Assembly (NCBI RefSeq): GCF_036417845.1
Contig: NC_089978.1
Coordinates: 136,952,288 to 137,016,287 of the forward strand
DNA from: Apteryx mantelli
Taxonomy: Eukaryota; Chordata; Aves; Apterygiformes; Apterygidae
Length of the DNA stretch: 64,000 nucleotides
Direction of reading: 5' to 3'
This document shows, piece by piece, positions 37,701-42,955 of the stretch. The notes under the pieces are model-generated. The model saw only the letters and a program-made list of their open reading frames with translations. It searched no databases and was not told the origin of the DNA. Numbering within the stretch: position 1 is the first letter of the stretch; the number at the start of each line of letters is the position of its first letter. Position numbers and translations under genes: made by a program.

Positions 37701-40700
37701 TTGGGAATTTTAAAGGTTATTATTGACATGATGTTACAGAGCACCTTAAATGGACTGGATGGTTAAGAGACCAAGAAAGACCATTTTTCTTTGCTTTATA
37801 CCCAGTCCACTTGCAGCAGTCTCTTGCTGCACTTTCAGATAGATCTGCTTGTCTTAAAATTGAAGCTCAGATAGATCCTGACTACTTTGCTTTCTGGGTC
37901 TGTTCTTCATCATTTATAAAAGAGCACAATTTCAGAGAAAATTGTAGATATACTCTTAAACAAAAATAACAGAGCCTAAAGATAAATAAGTCATTCATTC
38001 TCCAGGAACATTCTAGCCTAAGTGGTGGTCGTTTAGATAATATAAAGACCCAGTCAAAGACCCATCAATTTTATCACATTTAAGCCTTGTTCACTAGCAA
38101 TATTTTAGCATCTTTTTGTCTCAAATGCAAAAATTTTTGCCTGAGATCACCCTTGTCTGATTTTATTGTAAATGTTTGTTTCATTAGAACAATACAGGTG
38201 TGCTACAAGTTAAGTAAGTAGAACTATGTACGTCTTTTAATACAGCTCTCAAAATGGAGAGAGGCAGCTATTCTCAGTAGTTAAACACAATTGCAGTTAG
38301 ATAACTGCTAGTACAGTTGTAGCTAACAAATCTCTAAAAAACAGTACAGATGTGGATTCAAGATCAGCCTTGCTGTCTTTCCTTCTGTGAGATGGAGTAT
38401 CTAATTTCCTGAAAATAATGTCTCTCCTTGTCTTTCAGGAAACCAATGTGTTAGGATTCAGGGGTCCCAGGAAAATGTCTGTGATCATTCCAGGAATGAA
38501 TAAGAATCATAAGCGAATTCCAGTCCGGCCACGAAATGTGAGTTTGGTCATGTTTCAGTCTGGAGGAAGAGGTTAGAACTTTCTCCTAGAGATCTGGCTG
38601 CTACTGACAATTGTGGTTGTCAGAGCAAGGTTGTTGATGGCAAGGATTGTTAGTATGTTTCATGGGCAGTACACTTTTTACAGTGCAATGTAAAGGTCTT
38701 GATTAATGTCCTTGCATTTTGCCTCATTTGTAGCCTTTTGAATAGTGTTTGTATCCTTACTTGCTGTTTAGTTGGACCTTATCTAGCTGTTTATTTAGCT
38801 ATTGCAATGACTATTGTATCTTGTTGCTATTGCGCCTACAACCCCTTCTCATAGACAGGACACTTATGCTGAGAGTTGTATCAACACAGAACAAATTTGC
38901 ACCTCCCAAAAGCTTAAATTTAGTCAAATATGATTTACAAGAGATGGATAGTAGCCCACAGAAAGATTGAGGCAGTATTTTGGTGTAGTAGCAAGAGTGT
39001 AAGTACATTTGTGATCAGAATGTTGTCAATCTCTTTGTAGGAATCACAGAAAAAGAGGATTCTGTACTGAGAAACTGGGATGAAAAGGATGGAGTTTTGT
39101 GCTGGCTATTTAGTAAGGACTTCTCATACATGTGGGAGATTTTCTAGTTAAAAGCTTACAAGGACAGGCCACTTGGGAGGGATATAGGGACGTCATGCGA
39201 GTATGCAGGGATGGTACTAGGAAGGCCAAGGCCCATTTGGAGTTTAATCTGGCAAGGGCTGTCAAGAACAGCAAGAAGGGCTTCTTTAAATACAACAGCA
39301 ACAAAAGGAAGACTAGGGAGAATGTGGGCCCACTGCTGAATGGGGCAGGGCCCTAGTGATGAAGGATAGAGAAGGCAGAGATACTGAATGCCTTCTTTGT
39401 TTCAGTCTTTACTGCTGAGACCAGCCCTCAGAATCCCAGAGAGCCTGATAGACCAGAGGGCTGTGCTGCCATTCAGAGGGACCTCAACAGGCTGGAAAGA
39501 TGGGCAGAGGGGAACCTTATGAAGTTCAATAAAGGCAAGTGCAAAGTCCTGCATCTAGGGAGGAATAACCCCCTGCACCAGCACAGGCTGGGGGCTGACC
39601 TGCTGGAAAGCAGCTCTGCGGAGAAGGACCTGGGAGTGCTGGTGGTCACCAAGTGGACCATGAGCCAGCAACATGCCTTTGTGGCCAAGAAGGCCAATGG
39701 TATGGACTGTATTAGGCAGAGAGTTGCCAGCAGGTCGAGGGAGGTAATCCTCCTCCTCTACTCAGCCCTCATGAGGCTGCATCTGGAGTATTGTGTCCAG
39801 TTTTGGGCTCCCCAATACAATAGAGACATGGAGCTACTGGAGTGAGTCCAGCAAAGGGCTACTAAGATGATTAATGGGCTGGAGCATTTCTCCTATGAGG
39901 AAAGGCTGAGAGAGCTGGGCCTGTTCAGCCTGGAGAAGAGAAGGCAGAGAGGGGATCTTATCAACGTAAGTACCTGAAGGGAGGGTGTAAAGAGGATGGA
40001 GCCAGACTCTTTTCAGTGGTGCCCAGTGACAGGACGTGAGGCAACGGGCACAAACTGAAACACAGGAAGGTCCGTCTGAACATGAGGAAAAACTTCTTGA
40101 CTGTGAGGGTGACAGAGCACTGGAAGAGGTTGCCCAGAGAGGTTGTGGAGTCTCCTTCTCTGGAGATATTTAAAAGCTGTCTGGACAGGGTCTTGGGCAA
40201 TGTGCTCTAGGTGACCCTGCTTGAGCAGGGGGGTTGGACTAGTTGATCTCCAGAGGTTCCTTCCAACCTCAACCATTCTGTGATTCTGTGAGAAGTGTAT
40301 TTGAAGTGTATTTGAACGGTGCATGGCCGTTCTTAGTTGGTGGAGCGATTTGTCTGGTTAATTCCGATAACGAACGAGACTCTGTCATGCTAACTAGTTA
40401 CGCGACCCTTTCACTGTGAGGGTGACAGAGCACTGGAAGAGGTTGCCCAGAGAGGTTGTGGAGTCTCCTTCTCTGGAGATATTCAAAACCCGCCTGGACA
40501 CGATCCTGGGCAATGTGCTCTAGGTGACCCTGCTTGAGCAGGGGGGTTGGACTAGATGATCTCCAGAGGTCCCTTCCAACCTCAACCATTCTGTGATTCT
40601 GTGAAGATGTTTTAGTGTGGGATGAAAAAGACTTCTGGTTCAGATCCCTTAGTGTGGGTTTCATGTTTAGTGTAATAGAGAAGAGGGCAGTGGCAGGAAA

Positions 40701-42955
40701 GATGGAGTAAACAGAGAGACATGGTCAGTGTTATAAGCTAGAAAATAGTATTGCAGCAATGTTTTGAGTGGATATGAGAAGAGAGAAAAGAATCTTTAAG
40801 AGTGGAAACTAAGAGTCATAAGAGTCTGGAAAAAAGATTTAATTCTGTGGATGGGCAGGAGAATTGAATCTGGAGATGGTCACTGATTCATCATCTCTCT
40901 ATAGGTATTTCCATCTCCACCAAACAGTACAGTAACCATTTCATGGCCCTGCCTTTATTTTTCTCTCCCATTTTCCCCAATGTTTTGTTAGCAGGTAAGC
41001 ATGGTGGCAGTGGTCAAGGCTGAAATACAAAGTTGTTCTGAGATGTTGTCAAAGCCTGCAGGGTAGCAGTTTGACATTTCGTTTTTGCTTCCTTCTCCGT
41101 AGTCTGATGCCATCAGTTAAGCAATACTGTCCCCACTTTAAAGGAGAAAAAATTGCATTTCTAAATGCAGTTTGGCAACTATTCTCGAAGTTCTCTTTGC
41201 ATGTTTATAAAAGCAGACAAATATAAAAATAAAGATATAAAGTAAGTAGATTAACTTGAACAATAAGCTTTAATGAAAATATAAAAATTGATTATCCTCA
41301 AAAATCCATTATCATATCTGTATATACTAGTACTAAAACATCTGCCATAGTTGTATTTGCTAGACCTGCACAAGAGGTTTTTTCCAGATCATCTCCTTCC
41401 CATTAAATAACTTCAGTTTGGATTCTTTTTCTTGGTAGCTTTTAGCTTATATTATTTCAGGCTGGATTTTATTTGTTGCATAACTTTTAAAATTAAATCA
41501 TAGGTCATGTGTTTTCCTCACTACTGTTGGCAGCTCCTTATAATTCCCTCTGTTTCTCAAACATAATGTGTTGTTTTACCTTTTTTTTTTTTCTCTCTCT
41601 CTCTCTCGTCTCTGTGTTTCTTATTTTATTTCTCTTATTAGACCTGGTAGAATGACATTTAACCTACTTAAGGCATACTTGCAGCCCACTGTAGCCTTTA
41701 GACTTCCTACAGAAACACCCTAGGGCCTGGCACTCTGGAGTTAAATTAGATGATTTTTCTTTGTTTAAAAGTTGGAGATCCTGTCGGAGAAAGCTTATGT
41801 GAGTCTTGGAAATGATTCCTGCCAGCAGGGTGATAGTCTGTGGAAAAAATAAATACCTGTGACCTGTGGAGCTCACACTTGTTCTCTTTCGCTCTTTTTT
41901 TTCTTCTTTGGTTAGAGATATGATGATAGGTTATTGAGGGGAAAGAAACCCTTGGACTGGAAATGTGGGAAAGTATCTGCCTGGTACCTGTAGGATATTT
42001 TCAGTAGGACAAAGTTTAAGTGCTGTCATTGTGTTCCCTCAAACACAGAATGACTTTCAAGTGATAGAGTGCATACACTTGAGAGGCAGTACTTGAAAAC
42101 AGAGCCGTTCCAAATCTGATAAACATATTTATTTCTTCTGAACAGGAGCATGAGAGTCTGCTATCAAAGTGGCAAAACAAAAACTTGGAGAACCTCATTG
42201 AGCTACACAACAAGGCTCCAGTCTGGAATGATGATACTCAATCCTATGTTTTGAACTTCCATGGGAGAGTCACTCAGGCCTCAGTGAAGAACTTCCAGAT
42301 TGTCCATGACAATGACCGTAAGAGTCTCTTGGAGAGCTTGTGGGGCTGTCATTACAACAGGGAAATCCCAGTATATTTTGTGAGGTTTGGGAGATGTAGG
42401 ACACCCTTCCTGGAGAAGGGAGACTGAGTGGAGAAATTCAGCCCAGGGGATACTGGGGACTTCTGATCTATCAAGCAAATGATATGAGACTTCCCTTTTT
42501 CTGAGGTGGGTGCAGAGGCTGCTGTCCACAGCTGCACCAAAATAGGGGACAAATGCAAGCCTCCTGAAGGGAAAGAAAAGGATTAACATGACACCTTCTG
42601 CCCAACCAAATAGTGGTTTGAGCCTTGGCTCTGTGAAAGAAGGTAATCCCAGCAACACAGTCACTCTAGAGAACAGATTTTAAGGCCAATTTGGTAAGAA
42701 GGAATAGATACACCAACCACATATATTTGGTATTGTTTGACTCCTGGTTTGATTTGTTTGTTTGTAGTTTTTTTGCCTCCATGTGAAATTGCTGTTCTCT
42801 GAGTCTTTCTTTTTTCCCCAGCTGACTACATTGTGATGCAGTTTGGTCGTGTAGCAGAAGATGTGTTCACTCTGGACTATAATTACCCTCTCTGTGCTCT
42901 CCAGGCCTTTGCTATTGGACTTTCCAGCTTTGATAGTAAATTGGCCTGTGAATGA
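10728..42955 (+). CDS. TULP3: TULP3, tubby-like protein 3 (complete, 11 coding exons)
   Basis: TULP3 binds PI(4,5)P2 at membranes through its tubby domain and the IFT-A complex through its N-terminus. It ferries GPR161 and other membrane cargo into primary cilia, which restrains Hedgehog signalling. Eleven exons (41, 52, 163, 177, 134, 198, 113, 115, 99, 172 and 134 nt) join in frame to 465 residues plus stop; human is 442. The N-terminal helix (about 14-44) with KKQRKKRL is the IFT-A/nuclear-localisation region, residues 50-205 are variable and acidic, and the tubby domain spans about 211-465 and ends in the signature [15 protein letters not shown]. The K-L-R pair corresponding to human K268/R270, needed for phosphoinositide binding, is present at K291/R293. 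Confidence 0.96.
14541..14573. repeat. alternating purine-pyrimidine tract
   Basis: CTGTGTGTGTGTG followed by TGCGCATGCG and TGTGTGTG makes 33 bp of nearly perfect alternation, a sequence class able to adopt Z-form DNA. It is a microsatellite inside TULP3 intron 1. Confidence 0.75.
23520..23560. repeat. perfect inverted repeat, 14-bp arms, 13-nt loop
   Basis: ACTTTTAACCACTT at 23520-23533 is the exact reverse complement of AAGTGGTTAAAAGT at 23547-23560. The stem is too short for a typical microRNA precursor. It could be a remnant of a small inverted-repeat element. Confidence 0.8.
24870..24904 (+). repeat. CT-rich simple repeat
   Basis: CCCTCTCTCCCTCTCTCTCT and related units, 1 kb upstream of TULP3 exon 2. 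Confidence 0.8.
25891..25942 (+). CDS. TULP3: TULP3 coding exon 2
   Basis: This 52-nt exon has acceptor TTTCCCAG and donor CAG/GTAATG. With the carried AG it encodes [18 protein letters not shown], which aligns with the human SVFHEEMMKMRQAKLDYQ helix used for IFT-A binding. Confidence 0.93.
25943..30594 (+). other. TULP3 intron 2
   Basis: No gene or clear interspersed repeat was recognised. A 36-bp-period imperfect duplication (GAGATAAAAAGC..TAAC) lies at 29060-29118. Confidence 0.5.
30595..30757 (+). CDS. TULP3: TULP3 coding exon 3
   Basis: The exon encodes [26 protein letters not shown] through to DVTLH plus one nucleotide. The basic KKQRKKR cluster (37-43) and VQPNPEA block are hallmarks of TULP3 N-termini. 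The acceptor is ATTTCACAG and the donor is G/GTAAGT. Confidence 0.95.
30758..32650 (+). other. TULP3 intron 3
   Basis: No gene was recognised. An A-rich tract grading into an AAT repeat lies at 32402-32432. Confidence 0.5.
32402..32432 (+). repeat. poly-A / (AAT)n tract
   Basis: About 15 A followed by AAT triplets form a simple repeat in TULP3 intron 3. Confidence 0.85.
32651..32827 (+). CDS. TULP3: TULP3 coding exon 4
   Basis: The exon starts GC ATT GAT GGA, so that with the carried G it reads GIDGPAA, the same as human. It covers the variable acidic linker and ends LQEILQKR plus one nucleotide at donor GAG/GTAAGA. The acceptor is GGCCTGCAG. Confidence 0.93.
32828..34367 (+). other. TULP3 intron 4
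   Basis: A poly-T run lies at about 32872-32890 and a perfect 12-bp hairpin (TGAAACTACTCA / TGAGTAGTTTCA, 7-nt loop) at 33325-33355. No gene is seen. Confidence 0.5.
33325..33355. repeat. perfect 12-bp hairpin with 7-nt loop
   Basis: The arms TGAAACTACTCA (33325-33336) and TGAGTAGTTTCA (33344-33355) are exact reverse complements. The role is unknown. Confidence 0.8.
34368..34501 (+). CDS. TULP3: TULP3 coding exon 5
   Basis: With the carried G the exon reads [18 protein letters not shown]..., matching the human ISESVNFDEE motif, and continues through a Ser-rich stretch to LKSSE. The acceptor is TTCTGACAG and the donor is GAA/GTAAGT, phase 0. Confidence 0.92.
34502..35089 (+). other. TULP3 intron 5
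   Basis: Short unique intron; nothing else recognised. Confidence 0.5.
35090..35287 (+). CDS. TULP3: TULP3 coding exon 6: start of tubby domain
   Basis: Sixty-six codons in phase 0. After a variable 21-residue lead, [20 protein letters not shown] begins the tubby domain, followed by [19 protein letters not shown]. The acceptor is TTCCCACAG and the donor is AAG/GTATTG. Confidence 0.96.
35288..35782 (+). other. TULP3 intron 6
   Basis: Short unique intron; nothing recognised. Confidence 0.5.
35783..35895 (+). CDS. TULP3: TULP3 coding exon 7
   Basis: The exon encodes [20 protein letters not shown] and [13 protein letters not shown] plus AG. The phosphoinositide-contacting K-L-R (human K268/R270) sits at the very end, and its arginine codon is split across the junction with exon 8. 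The acceptor is CTTTCCAG and the donor is CAG/GTGAGA. Confidence 0.96.
35896..36328 (+). other. TULP3 intron 7
   Basis: Unique intron of 433 nt; nothing recognised. Confidence 0.5.
36329..36443 (+). CDS. TULP3: TULP3 coding exon 8
   Basis: The exon encodes (R)[20 protein letters not shown] and [12 protein letters not shown] of the tubby barrel. The acceptor is GACATTAG and the donor is TAT/GTAAGT. Confidence 0.95.
36444..38438 (+). other. TULP3 intron 8
   Basis: AT-rich, with an A run at about 37288-37302. No gene or interspersed repeat was recognised. Confidence 0.5.
38439..38537 (+). CDS. TULP3: TULP3 coding exon 9
   Basis: The exon encodes 33 residues, [20 protein letters not shown] and [13 protein letters not shown], a segment nearly invariant in tubby proteins up to IIPGM and variable after it. 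Phase 0 on both ends; acceptor CTTTCAG, donor AAT/GTGAGT. Confidence 0.95.
39130..40290 (+). mobile_element. CR1 LINE, 5'-truncated and internally deleted
   Basis: The copy encodes broken pieces of CR1 ORF2: a linker segment ([21 protein letters not shown]) and a late reverse-transcriptase/C-terminal segment ([13 protein letters not shown] and [20 protein letters not shown]), with stops such as at 39356 and 39843. The main reverse-transcriptase core expected between these parts is missing at about 39462. It ends with the CR1 3' terminus, two copies of ATTCTGTG, at 40290. It is non-autonomous and dead. Its left edge is approximate. Confidence 0.9.
40318..40408 (+). pseudogene. 18S rRNA fragment (about 91 bp)
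   Basis: The fragment includes GCATGGCCGTTCTTAGTTGG, TTAATTCCGATAACGAACGA and TGCTAACTAGTTACGCGACC, all in the correct order and spacing of the 3' major domain of vertebrate 18S rRNA. From memory I see one difference, T instead of G at 40384. This is far too short to be functional rRNA. Confidence 0.92.
40318..40603 (+). mobile_element. 18S rRNA-CR1 chimeric retroinsertion
   Basis: Positions 40318-40408 read as 18S rRNA, and from 40409 the sequence is a CR1 3' end (CACTGTGAGGGTGACAGAGC through to two ATTCTGTG units at 40603). The order, ncRNA at the 5' side and LINE 3' end at the 3' side on the same strand, is what template switching during target-primed reverse transcription would leave. 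It starts 27 bp after the end of the neighbouring CR1 copy and is less diverged from typical CR1 than that copy. No clear target-site duplication is visible. Confidence 0.85.
41580..41609 (+). repeat. poly-T / (CT)n tract
   Basis: About 13 T followed by eight CT units, 500 bp upstream of exon 10. Confidence 0.85.
42146..42317 (+). CDS. TULP3: TULP3 coding exon 10
   Basis: The exon encodes [28 protein letters not shown]... and [17 protein letters not shown] plus one nucleotide, the conserved C-terminal half of the tubby barrel. The acceptor is TTCTGAACAG and the donor is ACC/GTAAGA. Confidence 0.96.
42318..42821 (+). other. TULP3 intron 10
   Basis: Intron of 504 nt; nothing else recognised. 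Confidence 0.5.
42822..42955 (+). CDS. TULP3: TULP3 terminal coding exon
   Basis: With the carried C the exon reads [20 protein letters not shown]...[11 protein letters not shown] followed by TGA at 42953-42955. The C-terminal hydrophobic helix typical of the tubby barrel is complete. The acceptor is TTTTTCCCCAG. Confidence 0.97.

Follow-up and report, generated by a model that had tools for sequence, protein, structure and literature searches.

A 91-nt fragment of 18S rRNA is joined directly, in the same orientation and without an intervening base, to the 5' side of a truncated copy of the CR1 retrotransposon in the genome of Apteryx mantelli. Such a direct join between a non-coding RNA and the 5' side of a LINE is what structurally defines an ncRNA/LINE chimera, and we consider it probable (roughly 70%) that this one arose by a single target-primed insertion during which the CR1 reverse transcriptase exchanged its CR1 RNA template for an 18S rRNA fragment. 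The window, that is, the whole 64-kb stretch of DNA that was analysed, covers positions 136952288-137016287 in a 1.504-Gb assembly of 408 contigs. Read from left to right, all on the + strand, the locus consists of CR1 copy 1, the older copy, which lies outside the chimeric insert and whose 3' part occupies 39439-40290; a 27-bp spacer (40291-40317); the 18S rRNA fragment, internal and truncated at both ends (40318-40408); CR1 copy 2, a 195-bp 5'-truncated 3' end with a (ATTCTGTG)2 tail (40409-40603); and an unrelated right flank (40604-40640) that begins with AAGATGTTTTAG. The tail of copy 1 is likewise (ATTCTGTG)2 and ends at 40290, 27 bp upstream of the 18S start. A preliminary description had already proposed the 18S identity, the CR1 tail ending in two ATTCTGTG units and the order, orientation and gap-free join of the two parts, and all of these are borne out by the evidence that follows.

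The identity of the 18S part rests on a covariance model search. In a cmscan run over 501 bases (40200-40700), the Rfam model RF01960 (SSU_rRNA_eukarya) matched from exactly 40318 with 64.4 bits (gathering threshold 50) and an E-value of 5.9e-17, its positions 1279-1369 being aligned gap-free up to 40408. Compared with the all-eukaryote Rfam consensus block, 59 of the first 63 bases are identical, and 72 of 91 overall. The vertebrate 18S sequence presumably differs from 40318-40408 at a single one of the 91 bases, and by this comparison the 18S part would be little changed. Detection of the fragment is filter-dependent, as a fast Rfam run over the entire window in gathering mode gave no hit at all, the 18S site included. 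When the wider stretch from 20000 to 62452 (42,453 bases) was scanned, the 18S site was the sole Rfam match at E <= 0.01, and it was called there SSU_rRNA_microsporidia (40266-40461, 36.3 bits, E 9.4e-7, below the gathering threshold of 50). A tandem rDNA segment at the locus, named beforehand as a finding that would argue against retrotransposition, can be rejected: the match is limited to 91 bases, CR1 comes next, and 20000-62452 holds no further rRNA match at E <= 0.01. A search for intact tRNAs found no tRNA genes in the window. Folding of the RNA from 40318 to 40603 gave a z-score of -1.86, with 7 of 200 shuffles folding equally well or better, and is given no weight as evidence.

The 3' part can be assigned to CR1 by its tail type and by its likeness to other copies in the genome; the family name is one that we take from the characteristic tail of the family and from papers, not from a repeat library. 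The 195 nt of copy 2 are 95% identical to the upstream CR1 copy, 313 bases away. Of 29 further CR1 loci in the genome, 28 show 93-97% identity to copy 2 across at least 189 bases, the alignment to the 29th (L022) covering just 54 bases. Of the two exact double ATTCTGTG tails, one begins at 40275 and the other at 40588. At the boundary between the two parts (40408/40409, within TAGTTACGCGACCCTTTCACTGTGAGGG), the 18S part ends in GCGACCC at 40408 and CR1 begins with TTTCACTGTGAGGG at 40409. The base that precedes the homologous TTTCACTG is a T in all 29 other loci and a C at the junction, and thus the CR1 homology stops at 40409, sharply at the 18S end. The same comparison reveals no base common to both templates at the junction. 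Both the 18S part and copy 2 lie on the + strand, the sense arrangement that either a template switch or a ligation would give.

The two CR1 copies differ in how far they have diverged from their relatives. Over the 195 aligned positions copy 2 departs from a 28-copy consensus at 3, none of them private, whereas copy 1 departs at 14, of which 11 are private. The 28 copies come from 29 loci that were picked by a match of 32-36 bp to the junction query, with the 54-base match in L022 and second matches in L011 (89.3%) and L023 (76.6%) omitted by the limits on length and identity. The longer 3' body of copy 1 (841 bp) diverges by 10.1% from a 24-copy consensus, whereas 23 of the 24 members diverge from it by 2.5-6.5%; this consensus comprises the copies with a match of at least 820 bases, and one outlier at 21.8% was retained in it. 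Pairwise, copy 1 is 81.8-88.6% identical to 23 of the 29 other loci over 841-891 bp and 75.1% identical to L023, with shorter pieces aligned in the remaining 5. By these divergences copy 1 is clearly older than copy 2, and copy 2 is a young copy in its own right. All 11 differences between the two are departures of copy 1 from the majority, which makes a tandem duplication of copy 1 unlikely as the source of copy 2. All three non-consensus states of copy 2 are, on the other hand, also found in copy 1, and one of them, a G at alignment index 100, occurs in 0 of the 28 sampled copies; this counts against an independent insertion by template switching. Because selection of the copies relied on a short match, the three common states probably reflect a subfamily missing from the sample; they also leave room for local exchange between copies 1 and 2. 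Copy 1 extends leftwards to at least about 39350 and lacks, at about 39440, some 770 bp present in other copies (762-790 bp in the 18 copies that aligned on both sides). Around this break 2 bases overlap in most copies, and the gap is best read as an internal deletion that this old copy has undergone.

The preferred reading is as follows. Target-primed reverse transcription would have placed a young CR1 RNA either some 27 bp downstream of the older CR1 or in the tail of that copy. Starting at the CR1 3' end, the CR1 reverse transcriptase would have transcribed about 195 nt before it jumped to an 18S rRNA molecule, either internally or at a broken 3' end, and it would have stopped after a further 91 nt, so that a sense chimera with 18S at its 5' end and CR1 at its 3' end would result from a single event. 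This switch is supported by the gap-free sense join at the 5' truncation of a young CR1. The single event, the template switch and the target site are the parts of this account that we infer. Two further points weigh against it: the evidence comes from one locus, with no replicate junction, and a simple switch leaves the 27-bp spacer, with its 11-bp repeat, unexplained.

The closest competitor is a ligation that preceded reverse transcription. An 18S fragment and the 5' end of a truncated CR1 RNA would first have been joined, perhaps by an RtcB-type RNA ligase, and the fusion product would have served as a single template for the reverse transcriptase. Such a ligation is the named alternative for sense LINE-1 chimeras in PMC13174262, and it would yield the identical order, orientation and gap-free junction; the lack of a common base at the junction fits it no worse than it fits a jump of the enzyme. 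It requires, however, that the CR1 RNA was cut at this point and that a suitable 18S fragment end was at hand, and nothing else in the locus prefers it over a jump. We therefore regard prior ligation as unlikely. The template-switch origin advanced in the preliminary description is accordingly upheld in part: a LINE chimera formed in a single event is the best reading, but the sequence cannot tell switching from prior RNA ligation.

The spacer and the flanks bear on how the 5' end was completed. Tandem Repeats Finder places 2.3 units of an 11-bp repeat, GAAGTGTATTT, with 100% matches at 40292-40316, exactly between the tail of the older CR1 and the start of 18S. Nothing in the window or in the 29 other CR1 loci marks the spacer as a known repeat: blastn at E <= 0.001 places 40292-40317 only once in the window, and none of the 29 loci contains an exact copy. 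The spacer is either old flank of copy 1 or filler that arose when the 5' junction was formed. No convincing target-site duplication emerged when it was aligned locally with the initial 31 bases of the right flank. The best alignment scored 14, and 16 under slightly different limits, and we rejected it as a duplication because a score of 14 was reached by 14% of 4000 random 30-mers from the window. With no target-site duplication bracketing the insert, a single event is argued and not demonstrated. CR1 insertions lack target-site duplications according to PMC2169234, but passages of PMC5729268 and PMC8665684 mention such duplications for CR1-type insertions, and the absence at this locus is thus not fully covered by the rule of the former paper. 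If copy 2 entered the tail of copy 1, the (ATTCTGTG)2-A found on either side could conceal a target-site duplication, and the spacer would then be filler. The double ATTCTGTG tails are the only two exact ones in the 64-kb window, 313 bp apart and in the same orientation; degenerate tails escape this count. The pairing of the tails would follow if CR1 preferentially targeted tails of older CR1 copies, though chance may also account for it.

The spacer is also the main argument for a second rival, in which CR1 copy 2 was inserted alone and the 18S piece, as cDNA or rDNA, was captured together with the spacer as filler by end-joining at the 5' end. Slippage or templated filler synthesis can leave short tandem repeats, and the perfect 11-bp tandem repeat of the spacer would fit such an origin. 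A clean 91-nt sense stretch of 18S at the CR1 5' truncation is nevertheless obtained more simply by copying, an argument that is itself weak since the sense orientation is expected in 50% of captures. Altogether, we think it quite improbable that the fragment was captured as filler.

Two further scenarios fare considerably worse. In a sequential one, an 18S retropseudogene came first and a CR1 was later inserted exactly at its 3' end. CR1 copies certainly abound in the genome, where the junction query has 472 first-look candidates, but the CR1 5' truncation would have to match the 18S end with single-base precision, and the 18S retropseudogene would have to lack a CR1 tail, a class that should be rare for a tail-specific LINE under the stringent model set out in part of PMC4476161; two such events are very hard to credit. 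A local rearrangement, with the 3' end of copy 1 tandem duplicated together with 18S filler or copy 2 converted by copy 1, could draw on the 95% likeness of the CR1 ends over 195 bp and 313 bp apart, on the three departures from consensus that they have in common and on their holding the window's only exact double ATTCTGTG tails, but it is highly unlikely, given the 11 private differences in copy 1 against 0 in copy 2, which resembles other copies in the genome (93-97%) just as closely as it does copy 1 (95%) and needs no special tie to it. An assembly error, in a contig of 222.9 Mb, is likewise highly unlikely.

We also asked how common such a structure is. With a 161-base junction query against the same genome, the present locus alone spans the junction among the 40 scored of 472 candidates; of the other 39, 38 contain CR1 only and one, L002, reaches 4 bases beyond. 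L002, the second-best candidate (query 126-161, 97%), was rejected as a junction copy, its 4-base reach into 18S being attributable to chance and the sequence there being ordinary CR1. No rDNA gene was returned among the 40 scored of the 472 candidates either, and since a true 18S gene was missed, the junction search is unreliable for finding 18S copies and its negative result is weak. The suggestion that the locus might belong to an rRNA-headed SINE-like family consequently finds no support among these 40, within the limits of that weak negative, and the head is an internal 18S fragment and not the tRNA-derived head by which a CR1-mobilised SINE of the TguSINE1 type would be recognized. Independently of the junction query, Rfam scans of the 29 other CR1 loci (87,932 bases) gave a match at E <= 0.01 in none of them; many of these copies extend up to, or almost up to, the limit of the sequence scanned, and some 5' ends fall outside it. 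Since a positive control of 42,453 bases, comparable in size to one of these scans, recovered the 18S site, RNA beside CR1 appears uncommon in that sample. A broader proposal is that the CR1 enzyme repeatedly switches onto rRNA fragments in birds, giving an rRNA-headed class and possibly the start of a SINE, and that priming here took place inside an older (ATTCTGTG)n tail, with a hidden duplication and a spacer of newly made filler. We hold this combined proposal to be speculative, with a small though real chance of being right.

Chimeras of this general type are known from other LINEs. LINE-1 chimeras with 28S, 5S, tRNA, U6 and other RNAs have been catalogued, those with 28S at 18 loci, 83% of them sense, and the 28S chimeras have been read as products of ligation or template switching (PMC13174262). 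The latter resemble the present locus in carrying a fragment of a large rRNA on the 5' side of the LINE, mostly in sense, and differ from it in the partners, which are 18S and CR1 here; the main text of PMC13174262 contains no mention of 18S, CR1, birds or chicken. In platypus, 40 U6 chimeras with L2 or its SINE Mon-1 were analysed and read as template switching, almost all of them placing a truncated 5' portion-less U6 ahead of a short L2. L2 is a LINE whose 3' tail, a short simple repeat, is stringently recognized, and a LINE with specific tail recognition thus forms such chimeras too; target-site duplications of 1-9 bp accompanied 72.5% of the 40. PMC4476161, the source of the platypus data, also describes lizard U6 chimeras that involve several LINE clades, and in turkey a single U6 copy adjoining a CR1-like element, where an assembly gap prevents resolution. 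A truncated RNA ahead of a short tail-recognizing LINE is common to the platypus chimeras and the kiwi locus, the RNA being 18S rRNA in the latter; the junction is complete here, in contrast to the gap in turkey.

Within birds, the passerine elements TguSINE1 and PittSINE combine tRNA-derived heads with CR1-derived tails and are multi-copy, and for PittSINE template switching of the CR1 enzyme to a tRNA was proposed, in a model that includes a target-site duplication (passages of PMC5729268). An RNA-derived head on a CR1-derived tail is thus common to these elements and to the present locus, which differs in its internal 18S head, in its one known copy and in that no target-site duplication of the PittSINE type is seen. 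18S rRNA itself has been copied into a genome by a LINE enzyme in human, where a portion of PMC5322556 reports two 5'-truncated tailless 18S retropseudogenes; these belong to a tailless class made by the LINE-1 system and are not LINE fusions. The 18S/CR1 pair was not found among the open-licence papers listed, outside which most subscription papers lie, and we do not claim its absence from print; nor did the open-licence papers listed yield a complete CR1 chimera with a structured RNA. Against the known ncRNA/LINE chimeras, the locus is a clean example in which the mechanism is an expected one and the partner pair, 18S with CR1, is new. Its complete junction would make directly visible the CR1 switching step that was proposed for a passerine SINE, and it shows what to seek genome-wide in CR1-rich birds.

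The insert lies within an intron of a Tub-family gene. Tub-domain exon frames on the same strand, delimited from stop to stop, are found on either side of it at 38391-38576 and 42083-42427, so that the host intron context spans 38391-42427 (+). Their peptides match Pfam PF01167 with E 4.8e-6 (26.9 bits, against a curated cut-off of 27) and E 6.9e-21 (75.5 bits), respectively, and all four exon peptides tried match this family, two of them with scores marginally below the curated threshold. The gene had been named TULP3; PDB chains of TUB and TULP3 score nearly equally (262.6 and 259.4 bits), and we therefore name it only as a member of the Tub family. Finally, weak Rfam matches to mir-3524 occur on both strands at 40569-40632 (25 and 22.8 bits, against a gathering threshold of 99), over the CR1 tail and the adjoining flank, and the mir-3524 family may itself be derived from CR1.
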